The notes beneath the pieces were generated by a model. That model was not told the DNA's origin, did no database searches, and saw nothing but the letters and a program-made list of their open reading frames with translations. 64,000 nucleotides of DNA from Cyanobacteria bacterium FACHB-471 (GTDB lineage Bacteria; Cyanobacteriota; Cyanobacteriia; Elainellales; Elainellaceae): the NCBI GenBank assembly GCA_014695345.1, contig JACJOC010000020.1, positions 1 to 64,000 on the forward strand. Direction: 5' to 3'. Both the position numbers and the translations under genes were made by a program. Positions 100 through 52,982 of this stretch are shown in pieces; positions within the stretch are counted from its first letter, which is position 1, and every line of letters begins with the position of its first letter.

Positions 100-3000
100 T
101 TGCCGGGTTAATAGTTGGCTTTCAACTGTGGCAATCACTTTCAGAAACATTGGATGAGAAAGTAACTAAAAACAATTTTCGCTCTGTGTTGAAACGATGG
201 CATGACCGAGGTGTGAAGTCTGTTACCCGCAGCATTGTCAAGACGTTACCCGTCAAGGGTTCAAATGCAGACGTTAATGCAACCGATGGACATCAGGATT
301 GGGGAGATGCAATTGATGTTTCAGTGTTTTATGGGCGATCGCAAGAACTCACTATCTTAGAAAAATGGCTAACTCACGATCGCTGTCGATTAGTTGCAAT
401 TTTAGGTATTGGCGGCACTGGGAAAACTGCTTTGTCGGTCAAGCTAGCAGAGCAGCTACAGCATCAGTTTGAATATGTGATCTGGCGATCGCTACATAAT
501 GCACCCACATTCGACTCACTGTTAAACAGCCTGACTTACTTGCCAACTAGTGCTGAATTGACTGCTTCTCAAGACATTGAGCAGCGAATGATGCAGCTTT
601 TGAAGCACTTTAGAACCCATCGCTGTCTATTGATTTTGGATAATGTAGAAACGATTTTGGCAGAGGCAACAGGGGACACTCGTGGGAGCCGAGTCGGCCA
701 TTATCGCCCTGGGTTTGAACTCTATGGAGAATTGTTCAAAAAAATAGGAGAGTTAAAACATCAAAGCTGTTTGCTGTTAACCAGTCGAGAAAAGCCCAAA
801 GAGATGGCTACCCTGGAAGGAAAAACACTTCCTGTTCGTTCATTTCAGCTAAACGGATTGACAGCAGTAGAAGGGCAAGAAATCTTACAGGCAAAAGGAA
901 ACTTTTCGGGTTCACAACAAGATTGGCAACGACTGATTCAAGCCTATGCAGGTAATCCTCTAGCGCTAAAAATTGTGGCAACCACCATTCATGACCTGTT
1001 TGCTGGAAATGTAGCTCACTTTTTGGCACAGAGAAGTGTAATTTTTGGGGATATTCAGGACTTGCTGACCCAACAGTTTGATCGGTTGTCGGCTTTAGAG
1101 CAGCAGGTAATGTATTGGCTGGCAATCAACCGTGAACCTGTGGCGATCGCTGACCTTCAAGCAGACATCCTTTCTCCATTACTGCCATCAGACTTACTGG
1201 AAGCACTGGAAGCTTTGCAGCGGCGATCGCTGATTGAACAAACTCCATCATCAGGAGTTGAAAGGCGTGCCACCCTATTTACACTTCAGCCCGTTTTGAT
1301 GGAATACGTCACGCAGCGGCTGATCCAGCACGTTTGCACTGAATTGAGTTCGCAGCAGGAACAACGAAACAGCCTGCCCTCCTCAACCTCTGAACGAGAT
1401 GCCTCATCAACACCCACTCCGCACTTCAAAGCTTATGCACTGATTAAAGCTCAGTCTCAGGAATATGTAAAAGAAGCGCAAATTAGCTTGATCCTCAAAC
1501 CGATCGCAACTCAACTGCTGCATCTTTTTGGTAGTGACGCAGCGTTGGAAACAATGTTGCTGCAGAAGCTTTCCTCATTACGTCGAAAACTATCGATCGA
1601 GGCAGGTTACATGGGTGGTAACATAATCAACTTGCTTCACCAGTTCAAGCCAGATCTAAACGGATATGACTTTTCTGAGCTAATCGTTTGGCAGGCAGAT
1701 TTAAAGAGCGTTTCTCTACAACATACTGATTTCTCCCATTCTGATCTGTCAAAATCGACGTTTACTGAGAGTTTTAACCACATCTACATCATGTCAGTGA
1801 GTGCCAACGGAGAATGGCTAGCCTCGGCTGACACACAGGGTGAGATCTGCCTGTGGCAACTGAAGGACGGACAACTGTTAAATACTTGGGAGGCGCATAA
1901 CGGTACAGTTCGTTCACTCACGTTTATGCCTGATGGTGAGACGTTAGCCAGTGGTGGCGACGACCAACTGTTGAAACTGTGGAATGCGAGAACTGGGCGG
2001 TGCTTGCGATCGCTCTATAACCCAACTGGAACGGTTTGGGCGATCGCACCTAGCCCAGATGGTCAAACCATTGTCATCACTGATGGCACCATCCGAGTAT
2101 GGAATCGCGATATAGATAAGTTGTCTATCCTGAGTCGGGAGCTTGACTGGACAACCAACGTTCGATTCAGTCCTGATGGTGAAATTCTCGCCTGTGCCTG
2201 CAATGACGGCACGATTAAGCTGCGGAATCCTTGTACCGGCGAATGTTTCAAGCTGTTGCCTGGGCATCAGCGCGGACCACTGGTATTTCTGTGTTTTAGC
2301 CCCGATGGCAAAATGCTAATGAGCAGCGGGCTAGATAACCAGTTGAAGTGGTGGGATGTAAAAACCGGGGAATGTCTACAGACCCAATCTCATCAGGGTT
2401 GGGTCTGGTGGGTTGACTGTAGCGAGGATGGTGAGATGGTCGTAAGCTGTAGCGCAGATCAAACAATTAAACTGTGGCATCTCCAAACCGGGCAACTGTT
2501 GAAAACTCTGCACGGACATGAATATGGCGTTCGAGTTGCCCTGTTTAGTCAGGACGGACGGACGCTGATTAGTAGTGATGAAGGACAAACCTTGAAGCTG
2601 TGGAATATCCAAACCGGGCAATGCCTCAAAACATGGCGAGGATACAGCGATAGCATCTGGGCGATCGCCTTTAGCTCTGACGGACGCACGCTGGTAAGCA
2701 GCGGGGAGGAGCAGACTGCAAAACTGTGGGATGTGCAAACCGGACAATGTATCAAACGGCTTAAGGGACATGGAGTTTGGGTGCGATCGGTCGCTTTTAG
2801 CCCGGACGATCAAACAGTGGCGACTAGCGGTGTAGACGGTGTGGTAAGGCTCTGGCAAGTTTCGACCGGAGAGTGTTTGCAAATCTTGCGGGGTCATGCA
2901 GGGTTTGTCTGGTCTGTGGCTTATAGCTCCAAGGGTGAAACGGTGGCGACTTGCAGCGTGGACTACACGATCCGGTTGTGGGATGTTTACTCAGGTCAGT

Positions 3001-3665
3001 GCCTACGGGTGTTCAATCATGGCAGTCCGGTGATTGCTGTGATTTACAGTCCCGATGCTCAACAGTTGGCAAGTTACAGCGTTGATCAGGGAATTCGTGT
3101 GTGGAACATTGCCACAGGTGAATGTCTGAGTGTGCTCCAGGCTGATAGTGCGTGGCACTTTTCTGCTACCTTTGATTGGGGTGGGGCGATCGCCTACAGT
3201 CCCGATGGGCAAGTCTTAGCCAGCAATAGTGGTACTGGCTCTGTGCAAATCTGGGATGCAGCAACCGGGCAACCTTTACGGCTATTGCAGGCACACGATA
3301 GCTCAATTGTGGCAATCGCCTACAGTCCCAACGGACAACGGTTAGTCACTGCCAGCCTGGATCAAGTCATTAAAGTGTGGAATGCCCAAACAGGAGAATG
3401 TCTTCAAGTTTTAGAAGGGCATACCAAATGGATTCACACGCTTACTTTTACAGTACTGTTTACGTCTGATTCCTCCAATTTGCAGTCTGTACTAGCCAGC
3501 AGCAGCGGCGATCGCACGATTCGTTTTTGGGACATCGAAACCGGAGAATGCTTGAAAGTTCTTAGAAGTGATAGACCCTATGAGGGGATGAATGTCACTG
3601 GGGTTACCGGATTAACGGCAATTCAGCGATCGACTTTGAAGGCTTTGGGGGCGGTTGAGAGGTAA
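96..3665 (+). CDS. NB-ARC/WD40 STAND-type protein
   Basis: Large cytoplasmic STAND NTPase of 1189 residues. The NB-ARC module shows a P-loop GIGGTGKT (about 104-111), a Walker B-like LLILDNVE, a sensor-like LLLTSREK and GNPLALK, the GLPLA equivalent. A winged-helix-like linker follows. From about residue 563 to 1165 there are 14 WD40 repeats, most ending in KLW[ND] or RLW[DQ], enough for two seven-bladed propellers. The C-terminus GVTGLT...LKALGAVE is usual for this cyanobacterial family. At the N-terminus, [19 protein letters not shown] normally follows a helix-turn-helix-like segment of about 50 residues; here only about ten unrelated residues precede it. STAND proteins of this kind are thought to sense a ligand with the propeller and signal by oligomerising; the ligand here is unknown. 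Confidence 0.9.
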
Positions 3666-3704
3666 TGAGTTATGGGAATTGGGGGTTAGGGTTTAGAAGC
3701 ACTC

Positions 3705-4688
3705 TCAGCTCAACCAGAGCGTGAGAATGGCGATCGCCACCCAGATCAGAAACATCCAACGGGTTAATCCCATTGCCTGCTCAATTCGGGCTGGAGTAAT
3801 CGGGTGAATGGAATCGCCCAACAGTGGCTTGTGTTTCACAGTGCCTTTGTAGACATTCACTCCACCTACCTGCACCCCGACTACGGCTGCATAGGCGCAC
3901 TCACTCCATCCGGCGTTGGGGCTGGGATCTTGAGGGGCATCTCGGCAGCAGATCTGCCACACATATTTAGGTTTACCGGATAGGAGTGAGAGAGTTAATA
4001 CCATCAGGCGACAGGGAATCCAGGTGAAGTAATCTTCCAGACGGGCGCTAAACCAGCCGAGGTGGGTGTAGGGTGCTTCTCGGTAGCCCACCATTGAATC
4101 GAGCGTACTTGCGGCTTTATATGCCAGCGCAAAAGGAACACTGCCGATCGGGGTGAAGGCTCCGATAATCGCCCAAAACAAGGGGGCCATGACTCCATCA
4201 GTGGCATTTTCTGTCACGGTTTCAAACACTGCCCGCAGGATTTCGGGTTCTGTTAGCTGTGCTGTATCTCGTCCAACGTACAGACTGAGTTTTGATCGGG
4301 CTGTTGCTAAATCTCCAGTCTTTAAGGGCTGCAAGACATCTTGAGCAGCAGTTCTCAAACTGCGTCCGGCAAAACAGCTTGCTAGCAAAATAGATGAGAC
4401 GGCGATCGCCCCACCCCAATGTATCCAACCTGTCACCTGAACGATCAGCCACCCTGCAACTCCGCTGCCGCCAATCATTCCAAGTCCTAAAATGACTCCT
4501 GCTATGCGTAGACTTAGGGGAGATTCGAACTGCTTCAGGACAAGGTGAGTGTATCGGCTAATCATCCAACCTATCACCTGAACGGGATGTAACCAGTTCC
4601 AGGGATCACCGATGAGATAGTCGAGCAAGGAGGCGATCGCTAATCCAGCTATGGCAAAATCGTGAGTCCAGGAAGTTATAGATATCAT
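3705..4688 (-). CDS. cbiB: Adenosylcobinamide-phosphate synthase CbiB/CobD
   Basis: Integral membrane protein of 327 residues that attaches the aminopropanol arm to adenosylcobyric acid in cobalamin biosynthesis. Family signatures are the N-terminal LLDYLIGDPWNWLHPVQ, the central TENATDG segment (the usual S/T-EN-xxDG motif), the AYKAASTLDSMVGY region and the late PQDPSPNAGWSE. Several hydrophobic helices are visible. The ATG overlaps the stop of the upstream 2H phosphoesterase gene (ATGA), so it is probably coupled to the kinase-phosphoesterase pair upstream. Length and motifs are normal for the family. Confidence 0.95.
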   Translation of the reverse strand: MISITSWTHDFAIAGLAIASLLDYLIGDPWNWLHPVQVIGWMISRYTHLVLKQFESPLSLRIAGVILGLGMIGGSGVAGWLIVQVTGWIHWGGAIAVSSILLASCFAGRSLRTAAQDVLQPLKTGDLATARSKLSLYVGRDTAQLTEPEILRAVFETVTENATDGVMAPLFWAIIGAFTPIGSVPFALAYKAASTLDSMVGYREAPYTHLGWFSARLEDYFTWIPCRLMVLTLSLLSGKPKYVWQICCRDAPQDPSPNAGWSECAYAAVVGVQVGGVNVYKGTVKHKPLLGDSIHPITPARIEQAMGLTRWMFLIWVAIAILTLWLS

Positions 4689-5203
4689 TTGAAATCAAAC
4701 TGGTTTGCCAATTCCCACGGCCCGCCTTTGTAATACCAGAGCAACAAGCCCTCACCTGTTCCCTGAAAGGCTTCCCATTCACTGGTGAGTTGGTCATACA
4801 ACAATCGAGCCTGGTCAGGAGTCACCTTGTTTTGAATAGTGATATGGGGGCGATAGCCCTGCTGGTCTTGCCGACTCAGCCAATCACGCCAATAGGTCGC
4901 AAGCTGTTGACGAAGTTGGATGAGTTCAGGACATTCAACTTCTACAGCCACTCCTTTGCCGAGAAAACGTAATGTTGTAAAAGTGAGAGTTAAGGGTGAG
5001 ATGTGAGAACGGAAGTCTTGCAACGTCTGTTGAATACTCGATTTCTGTTCACCCGGGAGTGCGTGAAACAGAGTAACGTGGGCAGATAGGAAGTTCCTTT
5101 CGGGTGGGAAGTGCTGCTGACGTAACTGATCAAAATAGCTAAAGGTTTTCTGATCTAGCTTTAGAGTCAAGATCAACGGAGATAGGTCAGACATAAGATT
5201 CAC
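4685..5203 (-). CDS. 2'-5' RNA ligase/2H phosphoesterase family protein
   Basis: A 172-residue protein with both catalytic H-x-T/S-x boxes of the 2H phosphoesterase (LigT-like) superfamily: HVTL near residue 42 and HITI near residue 120, the second in a PHITIQNK context. Relatives act on 2',5' or cyclic phosphodiesters in RNA or nucleotides; the true substrate here is unknown. It lies between a sensor kinase gene and cbiB with 4-bp ATGA overlaps at both ends, so the three are almost certainly co-translated. No link between this enzyme and cobalamin is established. Confidence 0.85.
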   Translation of the reverse strand: MNLMSDLSPLILTLKLDQKTFSYFDQLRQQHFPPERNFLSAHVTLFHALPGEQKSSIQQTLQDFRSHISPLTLTFTTLRFLGKGVAVEVECPELIQLRQQLATYWRDWLSRQDQQGYRPHITIQNKVTPDQARLLYDQLTSEWEAFQGTGEGLLLWYYKGGPWELANQFDFK

Positions 5204-6654
5204 ACTTCAACCTTGGAAAGAGACTCTTCATGCCCACTCTTTTGCAGGGGCAAACCGATGGTCAGGGTTGTCCCATGTCCAAATGTACTGTTTGCAGTGA
5301 TGTTGCCGCCATGAGCTTCTACGATGCGTTTGGCGATCGCCAGTCCCAAGCCCGTGCTGCTGCCTTTGCGGGAAGGATCGGCAGTATAAAACTGCTCAAA
5401 AATACGGGGCAGATCCCGCTCCCTGATACCCGTCCCCTGGTCGCTAATTTTGATCACAATCTGCTTTCCTTCACGCTGCCCTGTGATTGCAATTTGGGAG
5501 TTGGGTTGAGAATGTTTGATTGCGTTGTCCAAGATGTTGAGCAGAGCCTGTAACAGTCGCTCTGGGTCACCCTGAATTTGCAGATTTGCTACGTTTTGCT
5601 GAATTCTAATTTCTAGCGCTTTAAGTCGAGTTTCCATTGCTCGTACAGCTCGCTCAATCAAATTTGGAAGGGCGATCGCCCGTTTCTCCAAAGATGTGAC
5701 TCCGGCTTCGAGTCTTCCCAGATCAAGCAGGTCATAGACTAGCTGAGATAAGCGTTTGATCTCATCTTCAACCGTTTGAAAGAAGCGATCGCGCAGCTCC
5801 GGTTCGGCATCAGCACCGTTTCTGAGCGCTTCTACCGTTAACTGAACATTACTAATCGGAGTGCGTAACTCGTGGGACACATCAGCTAGAAAAGAGCGCC
5901 TTTCCTGATCGAGAGACTCCAAACGTTGGCTCATGCGGTTTAGCTGGATCGCAAGCTGATCTAGCTCATTGCTCTGACGAATGGTGAGGCGATCGCCAAA
6001 GTGACCGCTGCCTAGCCGAATTGCAAAAGCCTGCATGGTTTGAATGGGTCTGGACAAACTGCGAGCCAACCATTCGCTAATCAAAGTACACAGCAGAACC
6101 GTGAGAAACAATGCTCCTAATACAGTCCAGATGATGTTGGCAAACTGATTTTGCAGTTGTTCCAGCGTAATCGACATCCGCAACACGCCCAGCATTTGCC
6201 CATTGCGCGAGATCGGACGAGAAATATAGAGGCGATCGTCATTTGATAAAAGTCCTTTGGTTAGACCCTGATCAACTCGATTTTGCAACGCCTCATTGAC
6301 CCCACTCACTTCCAGCCAGTTCTCGATTTGAGAGTCTAACTCAGGACTAGAGGTGGCAATCAGTTGTCCATTTACATCTAAAATGCGAAGGGTAATAGCC
6401 TCTGGTGCCCCATAACGCTGCATTATCACGTCCACACGGTCAAGATCCTCCTCTTCTAGAGCATCTGCCACACTCTCAGCCAAAGCGCCACTCCAGTTTT
6501 CTAGGTCGGCTTGTCTGGTTTCAATAAAATAGTTGTAGCAAGACCACAGAATGTAGCCTGACATCAATGATGTCCCGATTGCGGTTAGCATCCAATAAGT
6601 CACTAACAGCTTAGTGTGAATGGAGTTCCACTTGATGCTAGACAACCAGCCCAT
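5200..6654 (-). CDS. Membrane sensor histidine kinase (HAMP-HisKA-HATPase)
   Basis: A 484-residue orthodox kinase. An N-terminal membrane helix (about 15-38) and a second (about 172-195) bracket a periplasmic sensor of about 130 residues; a HAMP domain follows. The H-box is DVSHELRTPISN with the phospho-accepting His at about 261. An N-box DNAIKHS, the G1 box DQGTGI and the G2 box GSSTGLGLAI are present, so the kinase looks active. No response regulator is immediately adjacent; the nearest lies two genes upstream and is more naturally paired with the CHASE2 kinase. Its stop overlaps the start of the 2H phosphoesterase gene. The signal is unknown. Confidence 0.93.
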   Translation of the reverse strand: MGWLSSIKWNSIHTKLLVTYWMLTAIGTSLMSGYILWSCYNYFIETRQADLENWSGALAESVADALEEEDLDRVDVIMQRYGAPEAITLRILDVNGQLIATSSPELDSQIENWLEVSGVNEALQNRVDQGLTKGLLSNDDRLYISRPISRNGQMLGVLRMSITLEQLQNQFANIIWTVLGALFLTVLLCTLISEWLARSLSRPIQTMQAFAIRLGSGHFGDRLTIRQSNELDQLAIQLNRMSQRLESLDQERRSFLADVSHELRTPISNVQLTVEALRNGADAEPELRDRFFQTVEDEIKRLSQLVYDLLDLGRLEAGVTSLEKRAIALPNLIERAVRAMETRLKALEIRIQQNVANLQIQGDPERLLQALLNILDNAIKHSQPNSQIAITGQREGKQIVIKISDQGTGIRERDLPRIFEQFYTADPSRKGSSTGLGLAIAKRIVEAHGGNITANSTFGHGTTLTIGLPLQKSGHEESLSKVEV

Positions 6655-43159: not shown

Positions 43160-43232
43160 AGATTTGGGTAATGGGATGAAGGGAGCGATCGCACCCACAA
43201 AGCCTGAGAAGCCAACTTTAGCCAAACGCACG

Positions 43233-43305
43233 TAGGGGCGCAGCATTCGGCAAATAAACCTTGGCATAAACCAAAAATCCTTGCCCGAATGCTACGCCCT
43301 CATAG
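43233..43305. repeat. Dispersed inverted repeat, copy 2
   Basis: GTAGGGGCGCAGCATTCGGCAA and TTGCCCGAATGCTACGCCCTC are inverted around about 28 bp. The same family is seen at 36828. It lies at the left edge of the nitrogen-regulated cluster. Confidence 0.8.
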
Positions 43306-43339: not shown

Positions 43340-43954
43340 TTAGAGGGATTCTTGCAAAGCTGGCGATCGCTCTCCCGTTACTGCTTCAACAAAGTCAGTG
43401 TGAAAAATACGGGCACCTGTTTGCAAGTACTCCATTGCGGTGAGGGCAGCCCAGTGGGCATCCCAGTCGGAGCCAGAGCAGCAGTCTTCAATTACGTGAA
43501 AGTGATAGTCGCGCTGATGGGCATCTGCTGCGGTGTAATGCACACATACATTCGTCATGCCGCCCATCAAAACCACCGTATCGACCTTTAAGCCACGCAG
43601 CAAAATTTCTAGGTCAGTGCCAAAGAAGCAACTATAGCGACGTTTAGAGATGGCAAACTCGCCATCAATTGGTGCTAGTTCCCAAAAGTAATTGGTGCTT
43701 TCCCAGGTTTCCAGGCAGTGAACAGGTTCAGCGCCATCTAATTCTCGTCCAAAGTCCACCATTTCTTTTCGATGCACTTCTTTAAAGTGAATGATTGGCA
43801 GTTTGGCTGCACGAGCCGCTGCTAGTACCTGTTTTGCATTGGGCAAAGTTTCTTTTGTGCTTGTATGGGGAAGTGTACCGTCGCCAAAAACAGGTCCCCC
43901 CTGCATGTCTACCAGGATTAAAGCAGTGCTGTTCAAATTCAAGTTTAATGTCAT
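43340..43954 (-). CDS. Cysteine hydrolase (isochorismatase family)
   Basis: A 204-residue hydrolase with the family triad: Asp in ALILVDMQGG, Lys in AISKRRYSCFFGTDLE and the nucleophilic Cys in LMGGMTNVCVHYTAADA, with the preceding cis-peptide bond region. Members include N-carbamoylsarcosine amidase, nicotinamidase and ureidoacrylate or biuret hydrolases, which all release nitrogen from amides. It is the last gene of the leftward cluster, 88 bases after the ABC permease. The presence of a creatininase homologue in the cluster fits an amide or ureido substrate (inference). Confidence 0.88.
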   Translation of the reverse strand: MTLNLNLNSTALILVDMQGGPVFGDGTLPHTSTKETLPNAKQVLAAARAAKLPIIHFKEVHRKEMVDFGRELDGAEPVHCLETWESTNYFWELAPIDGEFAISKRRYSCFFGTDLEILLRGLKVDTVVLMGGMTNVCVHYTAADAHQRDYHFHVIEDCCSGSDWDAHWAALTAMEYLQTGARIFHTDFVEAVTGERSPALQESL

Positions 43955-44042
43955 AAAGCGATCGCTCCTTAAAAATCTAATCTGTCAACCCACTTCTACA
44001 GACACAATGAATTGATCTCACAAGAAAAATCTCACTAAATTC

Positions 44043-44918
44043 TCAATGCCGAGTTGCATCCGCCCACGGAGTTAAAAGCTTTGAGAGCCACTTGAGCAGA
44101 TAGTCTGTGATTAGACCAATCAAGCCAATAACGGCAATACAAAACAATACTTTCTCAGTTTGCAAAAACCGTTGTGCCTGCAGAATTTTGAAGCCTAAAC
44201 CGTTCTGTGCCGCTACCAATTCTGCATATACTAAGAAGTTCCAGGCCCCAGAAATATTGACTCGTAACGTGTCTAAAACACTTGGGAAAGCGGCTGGAAC
44301 AATCACTCTAAACAACACATCTAACCGATTTGCACCCAACGTGTAAGCTACATTAATCATCTCGTTGGGAATGAATTTGACTGCATCTGCAACCATGATG
44401 GCGTTGTAAAACACTACTCCCATAAAGATGATGACTGTTTTGGAGGTTTCGCCTAGGCCAAACCAGATAATCACTAATGGAACAAATGCTAAGACGGGCA
44501 TGTAGCGGACAGTGCCAACAATGGGGGCAAACAAACTTTCCATGCTGTAGAAAGTACCCATTGCAATTCCAACCGGTACGCCAATCACAGCCGCTGCCAG
44601 AAAGCCTGCCGCAACCCGACCGCAGCTTGCCAAAACATCAACAGTGAGTTCGTCCTGGAACAATGCAATCCCAGATTGAATGACCGCCGTAGGCGTTGGC
44701 AAAAAGATCGGAGTGACCCATCCCGCATAGCTAATTACCGTCCAAGCAGTCAGTGGGATTGCTAAAGCAATAGCGGAAAGTAAGATTGCTAACCAACGCG
44801 GAAAACCCTGGCGAATGCTCCAAAACACAGACGGTTTAAGATACCGTCTAGGTGCAGCAGAGGGTTGAATGTTGGGGGTACTAAGACTAGATTGCGCCAC
44901 CGGCTGTGTTTCCTCCAT
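44043..44918 (-). CDS. ABC permease, SsuC/TauC type
   Basis: A 291-residue permease. Six membrane helices are visible, and the cytoplasmic EAA loop reads LGANRLDVLFRVIVPAAFPSVLDTLR. It belongs to the nitrate/sulfonate/taurine/aliphatic-amine importer class and should pair with the divergent ATPase at 50371. Its start overlaps the SDR gene by 32 bp. No periplasmic substrate-binding protein gene lies in the cluster. Confidence 0.92.
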   Translation of the reverse strand: MEETQPVAQSSLSTPNIQPSAAPRRYLKPSVFWSIRQGFPRWLAILLSAIALAIPLTAWTVISYAGWVTPIFLPTPTAVIQSGIALFQDELTVDVLASCGRVAAGFLAAAVIGVPVGIAMGTFYSMESLFAPIVGTVRYMPVLAFVPLVIIWFGLGETSKTVIIFMGVVFYNAIMVADAVKFIPNEMINVAYTLGANRLDVLFRVIVPAAFPSVLDTLRVNISGAWNFLVYAELVAAQNGLGFKILQAQRFLQTEKVLFCIAVIGLIGLITDYLLKWLSKLLTPWADATRH

Positions 44919-45624
44919 CGAGAACTAAACAACTGCCCATTGCGTACTCGGCATGGGCTAAAAAGTAAGCGGCTTCTGCGACTTCGAGCGCGGTTGCCAT
45001 ACGGGGAATCGGTAGCACCTGTTGCCAGTGTGCAACTTCTTCTGCGGGAAGGTCTGCTGTTAAGGGCGTATCGACTGGTCCAGGGCAGAGGGCATTAATC
45101 CGCACACCCTGACGGGCATGATCCATTGCCATTGATTTGGTCAATAGAATGACTCCGCCTTTAGAGGCGCTGTAGGCTGCTAGTCCACGGCAGCCCAAAA
45201 TTCCGGCATCAGAAGCAACATTTACGATTGAACCTGTGCTGCGATCGCTCATGTGCTGCAATACCTGTCGATTTACGAGGAAGGTTCCTTTCAGATTGGT
45301 GTTGATCACCTGATCCCAGGTTTCTTCGTCGGTTTCTAGAATCGTACCAGCGGGGGCGATGCCAGCAGCGTGTATCAGGACATCAATTTGTCCCCATTCT
45401 GCTAGAACGGTTTCTACCATTTGTTTCACATCCTGGGAAACGGCGACATCAGCCGCGATCGCCTTCGCCATTCCCCCATCTAGCTCAATCTCTTGCTGCA
45501 CTTTTTCCGACAAATCAACTCGACGAGCGGCGATCGCCACAGCGTATCCTTTTTGAGCAAACAATAGTGCTATTGCTCGCCCAATCCCTGAATTTCCGCC
45601 TGTGACTAACGCAACTTTTACCAT
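44887..45624 (-). CDS. SDR-family oxidoreductase (cluster)
   Basis: A 245-residue short-chain dehydrogenase. It has the Rossmann motif VTGGNSGIGRAIA, NAG-like HAAGIAPAG, the active-site Ser in NVASDAG and the catalytic YSASKGG. A basic AARR after beta-2 suggests NADP(H). It lies inside the nitrogen-regulated operon, 18 bases after the exporter gene, and would oxidise or reduce an intermediate; the substrate is unknown. Confidence 0.92.
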   Translation of the reverse strand: MVKVALVTGGNSGIGRAIALLFAQKGYAVAIAARRVDLSEKVQQEIELDGGMAKAIAADVAVSQDVKQMVETVLAEWGQIDVLIHAAGIAPAGTILETDEETWDQVINTNLKGTFLVNRQVLQHMSDRSTGSIVNVASDAGILGCRGLAAYSASKGGVILLTKSMAMDHARQGVRINALCPGPVDTPLTADLPAEEVAHWQQVLPIPRMATALEVAEAAYFLAHAEYAMGSCLVLDGGNTAGGAI

Positions 45625-45642
45625 TACTCTGCAAAGTGAGTC

Positions 45643-46593
45643 CTAAGAGTTTCTAGGGTTTCTGCCAAACAGCGTTACACCAATTGCTGCCGTTGTAACC
45701 ATTGCGATCGCCACCAAACTCCGAAGCTCCAACTGTTCCCCCAAAAACAACAGTCCGACCAACGCAGCGATGGCAGGTTCTATGCTGATCAAAACGCCGT
45801 AGACTCTTGGCGGTAAGCATTTGAGCGCTTTGTATTCTAAAGAATAGGGCAATATAACGCCGAGGACAGCAATGCCAAGACCCAACAGGAGAATGCTAGG
45901 TTTCAGCAGAGCGCTACCACCTGCATGAATGCCGAGGGGCAACATGAGCAGAGTAGCGATCGCCATTGCCAGCGATAGTCCTGACCCACCTGAAAAAGCT
46001 CGTCCAACTGGAGCAGAGAGCAGAATAAAGCCAGCCCAAGAACTAGCTGAGAGTAATCCAAAAGTAACGCCCAGTGGGTCGAGAGAAGCACCGCTAAGCG
46101 GCGTGAGCAACAGGACTCCCGCTGCTGCTAAAATCACCCATACTAGATCGAGCAAGCGGCGTGAACCCAGGACAGCCACACTCAGCGGACCTACAAAATC
46201 CAAAGCTGAGGCAATGCCTAGAGGAATGCGGGCGATCGCTCCATAAAATGCCAAACTGAGTCCAGCGATCGCCACTCCCAACCCTGCAACCAAAACATAA
46301 TCTCCCCATCCTCGATTTTGCAGCCGGGGTCGCCAGATGAGCAGCATCAATACTGCGGCGATCGCCTTACAGATAAATGCCGCTCCAATCGGACTGAGTA
46401 CATCAAAAAGCTGCTTAGAGGTCGCCGTTCCTGCCTGTGCTGCAAAACTGGTAAGTAAGACCAAACTGCTAGGTGGAATTGAACCAAACCACGTCTGTAA
46501 CTGTCCGTTTTTCTGCGCGATGAATGCAGTGAAGGACGACAAATGGGGATTGGGAACTGCTTCACGGGGTTGAGGATAGATAGCAGACTGCAT
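45643..46593 (-). CDS. RhtA-like DMT/EamA transporter
   Basis: A 316-residue protein with ten hydrophobic helices in two EamA halves. The DFVGPLSVAVLGSRR and SIEPAIAALVGLLFLGEQL segments match the RhtA (threonine/homoserine exporter) branch. RhtA-type proteins export amino acids or analogues. In this operon it may release a toxic or excess intermediate (inference). It follows the GlnT-like gene by 12 bases. Confidence 0.87.
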   Translation of the reverse strand: MQSAIYPQPREAVPNPHLSSFTAFIAQKNGQLQTWFGSIPPSSLVLLTSFAAQAGTATSKQLFDVLSPIGAAFICKAIAAVLMLLIWRPRLQNRGWGDYVLVAGLGVAIAGLSLAFYGAIARIPLGIASALDFVGPLSVAVLGSRRLLDLVWVILAAAGVLLLTPLSGASLDPLGVTFGLLSASSWAGFILLSAPVGRAFSGGSGLSLAMAIATLLMLPLGIHAGGSALLKPSILLLGLGIAVLGVILPYSLEYKALKCLPPRVYGVLISIEPAIAALVGLLFLGEQLELRSLVAIAMVTTAAIGVTLFGRNPRNS

Positions 46594-46605
46594 TCAATTT
46601 TTCCT

Positions 46606-47967
46606 CTAGAAAAATTTCAGGTAACGCTGAATTTCCCAATCAGAAACGTGACTGTGGTATTCCTCCCATTCCTGAGTTTTGAAGTCAACATAGGTTTGAT
46701 ACATTAGATCACCCATTACCAATTTGCTGAGCGGATCGGCGGCAAAGGCGGCGATCGCCCCTCCTAACGTGCGTGGCAAAAACTTAATTCCCTTCTCCTC
46801 CAATTCTTTGAGCGAATATTCGTACATGTTCTCGGTATGCGGTTCACCCGGATCAAGCCCTTCCCGAATTCCCTCCAGCCCTGCCGCCAGAATCATTGCC
46901 GCACCTAAATATAAGTTGCTAGAAATGTCAGATGCCCGACATTCCACCCGCCCGCCACCCAACGGAATCCGCAACATGTTAGTGCGATTATTATTGCCAT
47001 AGCAGATGTACACAGGTGCCCAGGTAAAGCCTGACATACTGCCCTTTGGCACCAAGCGCTTATAGCTATTAACGGTGGGCGCAATCACTGCACAGATTGC
47101 CTGAGCATGTCTGAGAACGCCTGAAATGAACTGATAGCCTAGCTTTGACAAGCCACAGCGACGCGGATCATCAACATCAACAAACAAGTTTTCACCCGTT
47201 TTAATATCTGCCAGCGACATGTTGTAGTGTGCGCCGCTACCTGTGCGATCGGCGAAGGGTTTGGGCATGAAGGTAGCGAAGTAACCGTGTTTTTTAGCGA
47301 TTTCCTTCACCATTAGTTTGAAGAAGGTGAGGCGATCGGACATTTTGAGGGCATCGCAGTAAGTAAAATCCGTCTCAAACTGCCCGTTGCCATCCTCATG
47401 GTCAAAGGAGTAGACATCCCAACCAAGCTGATTCATTGCTTCGACAATCTCTTGCACCCAGGTAAAGTTATCGAGCAGTCCGGGTAGGTCGTAGCAGGGT
47501 TTTGCTAGCGTGTCGCGATCGCTGACAGGTGCCCCCCGTCCATCTGCCGTTTCCTTCAGGATAAAAAACTCAGTTTCAATCCCCATATTGAAGGTGAAAC
47601 CCATTTCAGCCGCTTCTGCCAACACCTTCTTGAGAATGCTTCGACAGCAGGCATCAAAGGGTTTTCCTTGCAGATATAAATCACTGGCAAACCAAGCAAT
47701 CTCAGAATTCCAGGGCAAAATAGTTGCCGAATCGGGATCAGGACGAGCAGAAACTTCCTCATCACTCACAGCCTGCGGTACGCCATCCAAAGCTGCTCCA
47801 GTAAACAGCTCTGAACCTGCCATCATTTGCCCAAAGTGAGACAAGGGAACTGCCTTTGCCTTACACATTCCGTGAATATCGACAAAACTAGCAAGGGCAT
47901 ATTTAACCCCTTTATCTTGCAGCGAGGTTTTGAGGGATTGCAGCTCAGGCGTAAGAGTTTCAGCCAT
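46606..47967 (-). CDS. glnT: GlnT-type glutamine synthetase-like ligase
   Basis: A 453-residue ATP-dependent ligase annotated in databases as type III glutamate-ammonia ligase. The beta-grasp region has ASFVDIHGMCKAKAVP. The catalytic half has GIETEFFIL, FDHEDGNGQFE, RTGSGAHYNMSL, NSYKRLVPK and NNRTNMLRIP. Relatives make gamma-glutamyl amides of methylamine, ethanolamine or anilines as well as glutamine. A housekeeping glnA is not implied. Its company with a Rieske oxygenase recalls the aniline-dioxygenase systems, where a GS-like protein gamma-glutamylates the amine first. It follows a hairpin repeat. Confidence 0.93.
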   Translation of the reverse strand: MAETLTPELQSLKTSLQDKGVKYALASFVDIHGMCKAKAVPLSHFGQMMAGSELFTGAALDGVPQAVSDEEVSARPDPDSATILPWNSEIAWFASDLYLQGKPFDACCRSILKKVLAEAAEMGFTFNMGIETEFFILKETADGRGAPVSDRDTLAKPCYDLPGLLDNFTWVQEIVEAMNQLGWDVYSFDHEDGNGQFETDFTYCDALKMSDRLTFFKLMVKEIAKKHGYFATFMPKPFADRTGSGAHYNMSLADIKTGENLFVDVDDPRRCGLSKLGYQFISGVLRHAQAICAVIAPTVNSYKRLVPKGSMSGFTWAPVYICYGNNNRTNMLRIPLGGGRVECRASDISSNLYLGAAMILAAGLEGIREGLDPGEPHTENMYEYSLKELEEKGIKFLPRTLGGAIAAFAADPLSKLVMGDLMYQTYVDFKTQEWEEYHSHVSDWEIQRYLKFF

Positions 47968-47993
47968 TTTAAGGAAGTGTATGAGTTAAAAAT

Positions 47994-48073
47994 GTAGGTT
48001 GGGTGGAGCATCGCGAAACCCAACATTCGATAATATTCTGGTTGTTGGGTTTCGCTTTGCTTCACCCACCTAC
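47994..48073. repeat. 80-bp MITE-like hairpin inside the operon
   Basis: GTAGGTTGGGTG-AGC..GCGAAACCCAACA is inverted against TGTTGGGTTTCGC..GC-CACCCACCTAC around a 17-bp AT-rich centre. It lies between the creatininase and glnT genes and may attenuate or process the transcript. Confidence 0.88.
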
Positions 48074-48100
48074 GGTGTTTCTGGGTTTCAGGTTAAGGAG

Positions 48101-48892
48101 TTATGGAACCGTAGGAGGTGGCATTTCTTCCAGAGGAGTTCCTTCGGCGATCGCCCTCTTCAACTGCTCACTCAACTCACTCACTGCTACCTCCAAAATT
48201 TGTTTGCCAAACGCTTCATCTGCCTTACTGGGCGAACCGACTGCGCCATGAACGCTCTCTTTGTTCACTGTGTAGGCAAAGAAACAACCGACGGAGCGAT
48301 CGGGTTCATCTACGGCTTTCTCAAGCTGCACTAGATCTGGACGTAGCGCTAACATCACCGATGTTTCAGCACAGTTGGCGTGAAAATTAGCCGCATCATG
48401 GTGATAAAACTCATGGATCTTAGGCGAAATTTCCCAAATTGAGCGCAGTGCAATCCTTAGATCTGGATATTGGTGACGCACATTTTCTAAACCACAGCGC
48501 AAAGGTGCCCAATTTGTGACATGTCCATTGAGCAGCAAAATGCGACTAAAACCTGCACTACAGACCCATTCTGCAATTTCTAACACCAGTGTTGCTAGCG
48601 TTTCGGGACGCAGCGAAATCGTGCCTGCCCACTTTTTGGAATGTCCTAGAGAGCAGCCGTAGGGCAAAGTCGGCAAAACAGGAATTCCCGTTTGGGCAGA
48701 AACACCATGAGCCACTGCGGTCGCTGAGAAAGTATCAACTCCAACGGGTAGATGCAGGGCATGTTGCTCAGTTGCGCCAACAGGAAGAATTACCAAATTC
48801 ATGCCGCGATCGCGCAAGTGAGTAATTTCCTCCCAGGTGAGTTCTTCCCAGAGGATAGGGGATTGAGAAGGGAGGGAAGCAGGCAGAGGCAT
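48101..48892 (-). CDS. Creatininase-family amidohydrolase
   Basis: A 263-residue metal-dependent hydrolase. The metal-binding segments are VGATEQHALHLPVGVD (Glu, His and Asp) and LLLNGHVTNW (NGHxxN), with a further Glu in CAETSVML. The family opens creatinine and related cyclic amides or hydrolyses formamide bonds of modified cofactors. It lies between the Rieske gene and glnT. In this context an amide-bond hydrolysis in a nitrogen-release route is likely; creatinine itself is not established as substrate. Confidence 0.9.
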   Translation of the reverse strand: MPLPASLPSQSPILWEELTWEEITHLRDRGMNLVILPVGATEQHALHLPVGVDTFSATAVAHGVSAQTGIPVLPTLPYGCSLGHSKKWAGTISLRPETLATLVLEIAEWVCSAGFSRILLLNGHVTNWAPLRCGLENVRHQYPDLRIALRSIWEISPKIHEFYHHDAANFHANCAETSVMLALRPDLVQLEKAVDEPDRSVGCFFAYTVNKESVHGAVGSPSKADEAFGKQILEVAVSELSEQLKRAIAEGTPLEEMPPPTVP

Positions 48893-48930
48893 GGAGGGAA
48901 GAGTGTAGTGGTATGAGAAAAGGATGGTTT

Positions 48931-50088
48931 CTATTTGGCGGGAGTGGCGATCGCTCTCATGATCAACTCTTGAAACAGGTGTGTACCCATTTCACGCGTT
49001 GGGGATAAGCGCCCTTGACGATACCCCAAGGACTGAGTTCGCTTTTGAACTTCAGGCAAGAGCTGTAAATCTTCTTGCTGAATGCCGTCATAAAACTCGA
49101 TCAGCGGCTCCAGATTTGCTGGTGACTTAGCAGCATCCGTATTCGGTACCAACCAATCCCACCGAACTCTGGTACGGCATGGACCTTGCGGATCAATCAG
49201 ATAAATGATGGCGCAGTTGGGTGCCACAATCCAGGCAAAGTTCGGGAAAAAACTCATTGTCGAAATACCTGCCATCTCGTACTCATTCAGCCCATCAACG
49301 TAAAGGGCTGGGTCTTTCTCAGACGGCAACTCATCTCGACCCACAAAAGGGGTGTACTGCAAGTAATAGTGATATCTCGCCTCAGCCTTTATGTGCTGAT
49401 AGTACTTTGCCAGAATCGGGTGAACCGTTGGCTCGTGATAGTTTTCTGCATTATTTTCGACGTATAGTTTCCAGTTACTATCTGTCCAATAGTCGATATA
49501 GTGAGCCCTTGCCCAGGTTTCTAGCTTGTATCGCTTAAACATCTCCGGCAATTCGCCTAACTGAACTGCCAAAGCATCTGATTTAGGGTCCAGGTTAACA
49601 AAAATGAATGGACCCCAGGTGTCCACCTTCACCGCCGTCAAGCCGTAAGCCACCAGGTCAAAATTCTCTGCCTCCTCCATATCAGGAATGCCGCGCAGGT
49701 TGCCCTCCAGGTCAAAGCTCCAGGCATGGTAAAGACAGGTAAGACGGTTACACTTGCCGCTGTCTACTGCCACTGGACCAGCCCGATGGGTACAAATGTT
49801 GAAAAAGGCGCGTAACTCGCCCGCCTTATTTTGCAGAATGACCAGAGGCTGCTCGGCAATCTCAACAGTGAAGTAAGAGTTTGGACCATCAAGCTGGCTG
49901 ACATGCCCAACGTAGTACCAGTATTTACCAAAGATGCGCTCTTGTTCCAAGCGATAGATCTCTGGTGAACTGTACATCTCAGCCGGAAGCGTAACCGCTT
50001 CACTGGAGAGCGATCGCGGCTGCCACGACTGCAACCAGGCAGGCTGCTTCGACTTCTGATCTAGTTCTGTCCCAATCAGGTTAACCAC
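48931..50088 (-). CDS. Rieske non-haem iron oxygenase, alpha subunit
   Basis: A 385-residue oxygenase. The Rieske centre is CTH-x16-CLYH (about residues 97-119). The mononuclear iron site is in NWKLYVENNAENYHEPTVHPIL, giving the His pair, with acidic QEEDLQLLPEVQ late in the chain as likely third ligand. Relatives include aromatic dioxygenases, aniline dioxygenase and betaine/carnitine/stachydrine demethylases. No reductase or beta subunit is in the window. It is the first gene of the leftward operon, downstream of the NtcA promoter. Confidence 0.93.
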   Translation of the reverse strand: MVNLIGTELDQKSKQPAWLQSWQPRSLSSEAVTLPAEMYSSPEIYRLEQERIFGKYWYYVGHVSQLDGPNSYFTVEIAEQPLVILQNKAGELRAFFNICTHRAGPVAVDSGKCNRLTCLYHAWSFDLEGNLRGIPDMEEAENFDLVAYGLTAVKVDTWGPFIFVNLDPKSDALAVQLGELPEMFKRYKLETWARAHYIDYWTDSNWKLYVENNAENYHEPTVHPILAKYYQHIKAEARYHYYLQYTPFVGRDELPSEKDPALYVDGLNEYEMAGISTMSFFPNFAWIVAPNCAIIYLIDPQGPCRTRVRWDWLVPNTDAAKSPANLEPLIEFYDGIQQEDLQLLPEVQKRTQSLGYRQGRLSPTREMGTHLFQELIMRAIATPAK

Positions 50089-50138
50089 GGCTGAAGTACT
50101 GTTTGGAATTGAGGAGTGTGGAAGGCTTTATTCCAGAC

Positions 50139-50179
50139 AGTCTATAGATTCCCGGTTGACTTTTTGTATCCAGAGATAC
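50139..50179 (-). promoter_or_regulatory. NtcA-activated promoter (GTA-N8-TAC with -10)
   Basis: A perfect GTATCCAGAGATAC lies at 50166-50179. On the minus strand 21 bases separate it from TAGACT (a TA-N3-T -10 box, overlapping TATAGA at 50141-50146), within the canonical 20-24 spacing of class II NtcA promoters. The -10 lies about 50 bases before the Rieske gene start. The box may also affect the divergent ATPase gene. Confidence 0.85.
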
Positions 50180-50370
50180 GGAGAATAGTTGTGAACAATT
50201 GATTTCCAACCTCTTGATTTTACCGCTCATAGCTATCTTGACTGACGGGACTGTTTTGATTGAAAGTAGCGATGAACTGTATCTCAGTTAACTTTTCATC
50301 TCGCAATCATCGGTTTAACTGAGAAAACCTATATCAAAGTGATGCCCACCCCTACTCAGGAATTTTGATC

Positions 50371-51204
50371 ATGCTGAACACCCGCCCATCCAGCGATGTG
50401 CGAGGACAAGAAGCCGGACTCGATGTGAGCCCCTCCTCCACCGCACAGCCCAAGATGGAAGTTCGCGGTCTGTTCAAGACCTTCCAGGTTCAGGGCAAAC
50501 CGCTGATGGTGCTGCAAAATATCAACTTTCAGCTTCATGCGAGAGAGTTTGTCTGCTTGGTTGGGGCATCCGGTTGCGGCAAATCGACGCTGCTCAACAT
50601 TGTTGCTGGACTGGATTCGCCAACCGCAGGGCAAGTTTTAGTTGATGGAGAAATGGTCGCTGGTCCTGGCTCTGACCGGGGCATGGTATTTCAGGGCTAT
50701 ACCCTTTATCCCTGGCTGACAGTCAGTGAAAATATTGCCTTTGGGCTAAAGCTGCGCCGCCTATCACGAGCACAACAGCAAGAGCGGGTGAATTACTATC
50801 TGGACGTAGTGGGGCTAACTCAGTTTGCCAAAGCCTATCCTAAGCAGCTCTCTGGTGGCATGAAACAGCGAGTGGCGATCGCCCGTGCCCTTGCCAACGA
50901 ACCCGAAGTCTTGCTGATGGACGAACCCTTTGGCGCGCTTGATGCCCAAACCAAGGAGCAAATGCAGCAATTTTTGCTCAGACTATGGGATCAAACCCAT
51001 ACCACCATCCTGATGATTACCCACGATGTTGAAGAAGCAATCTTCCTGTCGCAGCGAGTATATGTCATGAGCCGCTGTCCAGGACAACTGAAGCTCGAAG
51101 TACCTATTACCCTACCTGCTCAACGCGACCTGGAAATAAAACTCACTCCCGAATTTGTAGACATCAAGCGGCAGGTTCTACACGCTCTACGAGACCAAGA
51201 TTGA
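50371..51204 (+). CDS. ABC ATPase, SsuB/TauB type
   Basis: A 277-residue ATP-binding subunit. Walker A is GASGCGKST, the Q-loop is FQGYTLYPW, the signature LSGGMKQRVAIARAL, Walker B VLLMDEPFGALDAQT and the switch His in ITHDVEEA. The class drives uptake of nitrate, sulfonates, taurine or amines. It is transcribed away from the Rieske operon across a 282-bp region with the NtcA box and should pair with the permease at 44043. The ATG at 50371 is preferred over a TTG two codons upstream. Confidence 0.95.
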   Translation: MLNTRPSSDVRGQEAGLDVSPSSTAQPKMEVRGLFKTFQVQGKPLMVLQNINFQLHAREFVCLVGASGCGKSTLLNIVAGLDSPTAGQVLVDGEMVAGPGSDRGMVFQGYTLYPWLTVSENIAFGLKLRRLSRAQQQERVNYYLDVVGLTQFAKAYPKQLSGGMKQRVAIARALANEPEVLLMDEPFGALDAQTKEQMQQFLLRLWDQTHTTILMITHDVEEAIFLSQRVYVMSRCPGQLKLEVPITLPAQRDLEIKLTPEFVDIKRQVLHALRDQD

Positions 51205-51224
51205 GCTAACATTGTTGCCGCGTA

Positions 51225-51446
51225 ATCGTTGCCGCGTAGGGCTAGCTGCCAGCACTCTTCACTCCTTCGCAAATTTTCTTCAGTACGCTGCTGTTCTAAA
51301 ATTCGCAGGTCGAGTTCCTGAATCAGCTTGATTTGCTGAGTTCGCCATGTGTCAGCCTGAGCAAAATATAGGTTCAGGGTTAAAGTCCAAGCGATGAGCA
51401 GCCCCTCAACCAGCACGAGTAAGCGGTAGCAACAATCCCTTACGCT
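51225..51446 (-). pseudogene. Truncated sensor-kinase/PAS remnant
   Basis: The minus strand encodes RLLVLVEGLLIAWTLTLNLYF (a membrane end), a coiled coil ELDLRILEQQRTEENLRRSEE and CWQLALRGND, which is the start of a PAS domain in many cyanobacterial kinases. Similarity stops abruptly near 51225, where the direct repeats GTTGCCGCGTA (51214-51224 and 51228-51238) occur. The rest of the kinase is missing and the ABC ATPase gene begins its end there. It marks a rearrangement junction. Confidence 0.7.
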
Positions 51447-51697
51447 TTATGGCAGAAGGACTGGGAATAAGGGAATTGAGGCGATCGCTAATTTCCGTTT
51501 CACAAGAATGGAATCTTGTTTATTCAGCAAATTTAGGAATCTTTGCGGTTTCTAGCAGGTATAAATGACTTTGTCCTGCAGGATTCCATTGACAGGGGGT
51601 GACAGGACGCGATAATCATGATTCAACCGTTACATCCTTTTTTGACAATGCAACATTTTCCAAACTTTCGGTTTTATCAGCAGCAAGGGGGACGGAC

Positions 51698-52666
51698 ATG
51701 GATGTCAGCTTAATCGTATCCAACATCCTGAACCCACCCATTCTGTTCTTTTTCTTGGGCATAACTGCTGTTCTAGTCAAATCTGACCTGGAAATTCCTG
51801 CTCCTATTCCAAAACTCTTTTCGCTCTACCTGCTATTTGCGATCGGCTTTAAGGGAGGGGTAGAGCTAGTTAAAAGTGGCATTACTCAGGAAGTCATGTT
51901 GACGCTTCTTGCGGCAATGCTGATGGCATGTATTGTGCCGTTTTATACCTTTTTTATTCTAAGGATAAAGCTGGATGCCTATGACTCAGCTGCGATCGCG
52001 GCCACCTACGGCTCGATTAGCGCTGTCACCTTTATTACTGCAAGTACTTTTTTGACTGGACTTGGCATCGATTTTGATGGCTATATGGTTGCGGCTCTTG
52101 CCCTAATGGAGTCCCCAGCAATTATTGTAGGTCTGATTTTAGTCAACTTATTTACCGTGGATGAGACACGAGAATTTGCCTGGTCGGAAGTGCTGAAAGA
52201 AGCATTTCTTAACAGTTCAGTTTTCTTGCTGGTAGGTAGCTTACTGATCGGCGTATTGACGGGAGAGCGGGGTTGGCACGCCCTAGAACCCTTTACTCAG
52301 GGAATGTTTTACGGCGTTTTGACCTTCTTCTTGCTAGACATGGGACTCGTTGCTGCTAGAAGACTTAAAGACTTACAAAAAACTGGCCTTTTTCTAATCT
52401 CGTTTGCCATACTGATTCCTATACTCAATGCAGGCATTGGGCTGCTTATTGCCAGATTCATTAACATGCCTCAAGGAGATGCACTTTTGTTCTCCGTTTT
52501 GTGTGCAAGTGCTTCTTATATTGCTGTCCCAGCAGCGATGCGAATAACGGTGCCCGAAGCGAACCCCAGCCTGTATGTTTCGACTGCTCTAGCGGTGACA
52601 TTCCCATTCAACATCATTGTAGGAATTCCACTCTATCTGTACGGAATTGACCTGTTGTGGAGATAA
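51698..52666 (+). CDS. sbtA: Sodium-dependent bicarbonate transporter SbtA
   Basis: High-affinity Na+/HCO3- symporter of the carbon-concentrating mechanism, 322 residues. About ten membrane helices are seen, with family segments ILNPPILFFFLGITAVLVKSDLE, AIGFKGGVEL and PEANPSLYVSTALAVTFPFNI. The ATG at 51698 has an AAGGGGGA site and fits family length better than the upstream start. sbtB follows after four bases. Confidence 0.95.
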   Translation: MDVSLIVSNILNPPILFFFLGITAVLVKSDLEIPAPIPKLFSLYLLFAIGFKGGVELVKSGITQEVMLTLLAAMLMACIVPFYTFFILRIKLDAYDSAAIAATYGSISAVTFITASTFLTGLGIDFDGYMVAALALMESPAIIVGLILVNLFTVDETREFAWSEVLKEAFLNSSVFLLVGSLLIGVLTGERGWHALEPFTQGMFYGVLTFFLLDMGLVAARRLKDLQKTGLFLISFAILIPILNAGIGLLIARFINMPQGDALLFSVLCASASYIAVPAAMRITVPEANPSLYVSTALAVTFPFNIIVGIPLYLYGIDLLWR

Positions 52667-52670
52667 TCTC

Positions 52671-52982
52671 ATGCATCTTGTTAAAAAAATAGAAATTATT
52701 GCCAATTCATTTGAGCTTGGCAAAATTTTGGATAGCTTAAATAAATCAGGTATACACGGTCACGCTGTAATTCGTAATGTTGCAGGTACAGGGTTGCGAG
52801 ACGGCACTGAAGATCTAGACATGACCATGCTAGATAATGTTTACATTCTTGCTTTCTGTATGCCTGAGCAAATTAAAACAGTTGTCGAAAATGTTCGACC
52901 TTTGCTCAACAAGTTTGGTGGCACCTGTTACGTCTCAGATGTAATGGAAATTCGCTCTGTTAAATGTATTGCATCATTGTGA
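52671..52982 (+). CDS. sbtB: P-II-like regulator SbtB
   Basis: A 103-residue P-II-superfamily protein that binds adenyl nucleotides and gates SbtA. It has MHLVKKIEIIANSFELGKIL, a T-loop region with GTGLRDGTEDL and FGGTCYVSDVMEI. The C-terminus ends in VKCIASL and lacks the CGPxGC-type redox/R-loop tail of some homologues. It lies in the sbtA operon, four bases downstream. The start is the ATG at 52671. Confidence 0.93.
   Translation: MHLVKKIEIIANSFELGKILDSLNKSGIHGHAVIRNVAGTGLRDGTEDLDMTMLDNVYILAFCMPEQIKTVVENVRPLLNKFGGTCYVSDVMEIRSVKCIASL

Follow-up and report, generated by a model that had tools for sequence, protein, structure and literature searches.

We found the remnant of a sensor kinase in a 384-bp interval that follows the stop codon (51202-51204) of an ABC-transporter ATPase gene and ends at a promoter-like element of sbtA, whose TTGACA lies at 51589. 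The remnant was most likely left by the ordinary local loss of a kinase operon through deletion in place and not by the arrival of the catabolic cluster that ends with this ATPase. The stretch of DNA analysed (64 kb, hereafter the window) was compared within a genus sample of three genomes, namely the window's own and two relatives, G001 and G002. An earlier note on this DNA placed the truncated kinase at 51205-51446. The remnant does lie there, on the minus strand, but passes the right edge given: it is well supported over 51211-51466, with 51502 as a possible, weak limit.

The open piece of the remnant is free of stop codons and encodes a membrane helix (VLVEGLLIAWTLTLNLYFAQ), a coiled coil and the start of a PAS domain (SEECWQLALRGND). 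Its translation is 59% identical, over about 61 amino acids, to a kinase on contig C462 of G001 that has the same neighbours in the same orientation and whose protein matches the Pfam families CHASE, PAS, HisKA and HATPase. When 36 genomes of the order (the window's own included) were searched with the remnant, 17 gave a match at E <= 0.01, the best after the window itself being this syntenic locus of G001 (E 1e-14) and the next reaching only E 2.5e-7. A Pfam search with the 71-aa piece returned nothing at E <= 0.01, so the kinase assignment comes from alignment and synteny. On homology and syntenic place, the truncated kinase of the earlier note is thus real, and we read it as the relic of a CHASE-type hybrid histidine kinase. 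The counterpart of C462 1393-5296, with the HisKA/HATPase part, is absent from the window, as would not be the case for a working kinase. Against the syntenic homologue the remnant shows deletions, a reading-frame change accompanied by a single-base gap near 51436, and a 14-bp duplication. In this sense it appears to be an ordinary and well supported pseudogene relic. Bacterial pseudogenes decay by deletion, with large deletions, frame changes and neighbouring genes spared, and we noted no difference of importance from that pattern. Plasmid records gave no match to the interval, and the literature, as far as titles and the openings of abstracts tell, holds nothing relevant on the point.

Features of the ATPase-sbtA interval in the window and on contig C462 of G001
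Feature	Position	Strand	Basis or remark
Window
ABC-transporter ATPase, closing the catabolic cluster and bounding the remnant on the left	50371-51204	+	read as NitT/TauT type
Probable junction of the ~3.9-kb deletion, directly past the ATPase stop	51205-51210		window 51203-51266 faces C462 1393-5296
14-bp tandem duplication in PAS-start codons	51211-51238	-	includes both 11-bp repeats
Open kinase-remnant piece (membrane helix, coiled coil, PAS start)	51225-51437	-	translation and homologues
Remnant part aligned to C462 1191-1392	51267-51466	-	71% DNA identity
Weak match to C462 621-658 (EISDRLN, early kinase)	51465-51502	-	76%, E 0.002
86 bp without detectable homology	51503-51588		alignment to C462; counterpart there ~406 bp (kinase 5' part and leader)
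sbtA promoter-like element, TTGACA-N16-GATAAT	51589-51616	+	C462 homology resumes at 51589
sbtA (bicarbonate transporter; presumed), right boundary of the remnant	51698-52666	+	ATG at 51698
sbtB-like gene (presumed)	52671-52982	+	ORF
Contig C462
sbtA start	ATG at 106	-	contig end
Kinase	334-2844		Pfam CHASE, PAS, HisKA, part of HATPase; one frameshift in the HATPase region
REC-REC-Hpt	2868-4277		Pfam receivers (two stretches), Hpt
RR-GGDEF gene	4274-5287		Pfam receiver and GGDEF
ATPase	5298-6128	-

The alignment of the window with C462 is colinear, in the same order and orientation, with the middle missing: 5,080 bp separate the ATPase stop from the sbtA -35 box in C462, against 384 bp in the window. 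Homology ends at the ATPase stop codon (window 51151-51202 on C462 5348-5297, 85%) and returns at the -35 box (window 51589-51804 on C462 214-1, 88%), and in between the window lacks stretches of roughly 3.9 kb, 0.53 kb and, net, 0.3 kb. DNA identity to C462 is 71-75% in the kinase part, lower than in the ATPase region (84%) and in the sbtA leader and start (88%). The ATPase is 93% identical to both C462 5298-6128 and G002:C311 3073-3903, and synonymous divergence of the gene is 0.71 between the window and C462 against 0.16 between C462 and G002. Contig C311 carries the C-terminal part of the kinase, REC-REC-Hpt, RR-GGDEF and the ATPase in the same order as C462; the kinase of G002 is seen in two parts on two contigs, with a piece of the N-terminal part at the end of C24. 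The kinase of C462 therefore shares with the remnant its place between ATPase and sbtA and its orientation, and has an RR-GGDEF partner beside it; it differs in having all the domains, where the window keeps the membrane helix, the coil and the PAS start alone. As the PAS start of the window is unlike that of C462, the lost gene would not have been identical in domain make-up. The match at 51465-51502 is tentative, since it is weak and contains a GCGATCGC octamer (presumably HIP1), and it was not reproduced in a separate alignment of the CHASE start.

Taken as a history, an ancestor of the genus would have had the ATPase tail to tail with a two-component operon. The operon would have comprised an RR-GGDEF gene and a hybrid kinase with CHASE, PAS, HisKA and HATPase domains, two receivers and an Hpt part, and sbtA would have been divergent from the kinase start. 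The lineage of the window would then have lost about 3.9 kb in at least one large deletion, probably another 0.53 kb or so in a second, and some 0.3 kb net besides, and would have acquired the frame change and the 14-bp tandem duplication. The scrap left, of about 250-290 bp, lies between two sites presumably sensitive to loss: the stop codon of the ATPase and the promoter of sbtA. The direction of change (loss here rather than gain there) and the order of events are what we infer, and relaxed selection may have been the driver. Loss limited by the needs of the neighbouring genes, with selection acting at both boundaries, would fit the borders of homology.

Homologues outside the genus bear on the direction. 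Across the class, 38 of 388 genomes gave a match to the CHASE part at E <= 1e-25, and neither the window's genome nor G002 was one of them. The nearest homologue outside the genus belongs to another family (genome G219, locus L130; 55%) and is a single open frame (1,461 aa) whose alignment covers the CHASE region as well as the HATPase site. Such an alignment through the CHASE region suggests that what the window lacks was lost from a larger gene, and that loss in the window is the simpler direction. This homologue resembles C462 at about 49% over two long stretches of the kinase and at 67% in the receiver part; it differs in being one open frame, and the 17 kb examined around it gave no match to this ATPase or to sbtA. 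At locus L131 two RR-GGDEF-like stretches follow the kinase, which points to the pairing of kinase and RR-GGDEF as a module elsewhere. We also considered whether the operon had moved within the window's genome: no kinase orthologue was found there (matches to the kinase N-part reach at most 40% identity), and the best match of the RR-GGDEF protein in the rest of that genome is 61%.

The direct repeats mentioned in the earlier note are present, GTTGCCGCGTA occurring at 51214-51224 and 51228-51238, but these two 11-bp copies, 3 bp apart, sit inside a 14-bp tandem pair (51211-51224 and 51225-51238) identical at 13 of 14 positions. Two short copies beside a deletion junction might be taken for target-site duplications of an excised mobile element. 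However, both copies spell PAS-start codons of the kinase on the minus strand (several homologues of the family have WQLALRGNN or a near form at this site), the full unit is 14 bp in tandem, and the double-repeat pattern occurs, with up to 3 mismatches, once in the 7.15-Mb genome and never in a reversed control. A tandem duplication within the kinase sequence accounts for these features, and we consider a mobile-element origin very unlikely. Throughout the window, exact runs 11 bp or longer with periods of 11-40 numbered seven, whereas 20 first-order Markov simulations gave 0.2 on average; short tandem copies of this kind exceed chance, and nothing about them is special to the remnant spot. 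The 14-bp pair is absent from the output of Tandem Repeats Finder, below whose limit it scores.

A function for what is left, either as a short membrane coiled-coil protein or as a regulatory spacer of sbtA or the ATPase, has in our judgement the faintest chance of the readings considered. A minus-strand ORF of 98 aa (51120-51416) is indeed open; however, it extends into the antisense of the ATPase, its place in C462 falls inside the kinase frame, and the remnant is less similar to C462 than both of its flanks are. No terminator-like site was found, although just 0.5 were expected in shuffles.

On the right side of the remnant, the gene at 51698 is taken to be sbtA, and the gene after it is taken to be sbtB-like. 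The promoter-like element is sigma-70-like and fits 11 of 12 consensus positions with a spacer of 16. One such site was found in 601 bp where 0.8 were expected in shuffles, a count near chance, so the promoter claim rests on conservation: the block also precedes sbtA in four readable rows from other genera (L035, L039, L040 and L043). The alignment was read for seven rows (the window, L035, L037, L039, L040, L043 and C462), and five of 12 (L034, L036, L041, L042 and L044), being on the minus strand, were left out. At eight sbtA loci outside the genus, drawn from 23 matching genomes with matches above 33% identity considered, neither the kinase nor this ATPase occurs (0/8 each), weak matches of about 34% to the ATPase (L083) and to receivers (L084) being read as paralogues.

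On the left side stands the catabolic cluster (43340-51204), made up of isochorismatase, permease, SDR, EamA, glutamine-synthetase-like, creatininase, Rieske oxygenase and ATPase genes, names mostly read from the sequence, with Pfam for two. The earlier note proposed that this cluster arrived or was rearranged here and destroyed the kinase. A kinase was destroyed and the edge was rearranged by deletion, whereas the arrival is most likely wrong. In its favour, only a few bases separate the broken end of the kinase from the gene that closes the cluster, and the neighbourhood is not a general one, since the kinase operon, like the EamA and isochorismatase genes, is found at none of 13 ATPase loci examined outside the genus, some of which end near the ATPase. 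Yet G001 has the ATPase, a near-complete kinase operon and the start of sbtA all together, with 7 bp between the GGDEF and ATPase stops, so that the cluster end was already the neighbour of the kinase operon. In both relatives, moreover, the left flank of the window (threonine synthase and desaturase, as read) leads into three genes of the cluster, those for isochorismatase, the permease and EamA. A glutamine-synthetase scrap of about 80 bp (window 47294-47373; 82.5% in G001, 70% in G002) lies 11 bp past the EamA match in G001 and G002 alike, and upstream of its ATPase G001 keeps a piece of the Rieske gene (window 49638-49766), C311 of G002 ending before that point. Matches split over two frames were seen for EamA in G002 and for the threonine synthase in G001. 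Flanks carrying cluster genes or scraps are not what a recent arrival would leave: they place the cluster before the split of the genus, and before the loss of the kinase. Breakage of the kinase by insertion or rearrangement of the cluster is accordingly as improbable, in our estimate, as the mobile-element origin of the repeats.

The cluster core thus appears to be older than the split of the genus, and it is partly conserved across the family. The 13 outside loci, taken from 32 genomes with an ATPase match, include, when matches above 38% identity at E <= 1e-10 are counted, Rieske at five, glutamine synthetase at six, creatininase at four, permease at eight and no cluster gene at four. The linkage of ATPase, kinase and sbtA was seen only in this genus when compared with these and the eight outside sbtA loci. 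The right edge of the cluster is then probably old and not a fresh insertion junction, which removes a false lead.

Near the left edge, a dispersed repeat of about 68 bp lies at 43232-43299. The three genomes of the genus had at least 43, 44 and 45 matches to a 246-bp query around it. The repeat accounts for nearly all of these, and the counts include the self-match and a few desaturase matches; an anchor of left-edge synteny there (with C462 12086-12152) was dropped for this reason. G001 also carries TnpB-like and TnpA-like ORFs (L114:11167-12934, read as IS200/IS605 type) between the permease and isochorismatase genes, and after its broken cluster ABC-F-like and psaA/psaB-like genes, as read (L114:1-8961), mark rearrangement in the relatives.

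On the G001 and G002 contigs read, to which this statement applies rather than to whole genomes, the kinase persists, and of the glutamine synthetase, creatininase, Rieske and SDR genes this place holds scraps at most. The window has the cluster but no longer the kinase, and the relatives have the kinase but no longer these four genes here, which could suggest that the kinase/c-di-GMP operon and the cluster were functionally tied; we give this only a slight chance. The tie may have been one of control by the kinase system, or of conflict with it, and may have concerned either the cluster or the neighbouring sbtA. The reciprocity may be a coincidence, as it involves two lineages and the relatives' kinase is itself frameshifted. 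Should the relic reading be wrong and the arrangement serve regulation, bicarbonate uptake would be linked to a two-component/c-di-GMP system, on thin evidence.

The earlier note also expected an intact kinase beside sbtA or the 43.2-kb flank in a relative lacking the cluster. The kinase is there in C462, with one frameshift, and the cluster is partly present; cluster-free relatives with the same truncated fragment, which would have spoken against its reading, were not seen in G001 or G002. C462 is the sole contig showing the kinase start beside sbtA (coverage 7.2), at its very end: it stops 106 bp into sbtA, whose frame already appears shifted. The G001 bin seems to mix strains, as coverage is 7.2 for C462 and 3.2 for C370, which over 370 bp shows 99% identity to G002. 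Although 5% apart, G001 and G002 share one frameshift (L029:2750-2800 and L070:525-575) in the HATPase region of the kinase, where the L130 homologue is open, and the N-terminal part on C370 has several single-base gaps against C462; no intact copy is thus known inside the genus. On either side of the shared frameshift dN/dS is 0.10-0.22. A split kinase, translational frameshifting or an early step of decay are alternatives for it, and the kinase may have been failing throughout the genus, or may be produced as two chains.

The ATPase-sbtA interval would then be, in this genus, a place of gain and loss, holding the kinase operon in G001, kinase parts and cyanate genes in G002, and the scrap in the window. 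Between the kinase start and sbtA, both C24 of G002 and C370 of G001 (L030:6899-14000, L031:866-8262) contain a cyanate island with DUF1348, cynS, cynD, cynB and cynA (as read), an AraC-type response regulator and a PAS kinase; in the window's genome a cynS match (83%) lies at another place (C102:74676-75113).
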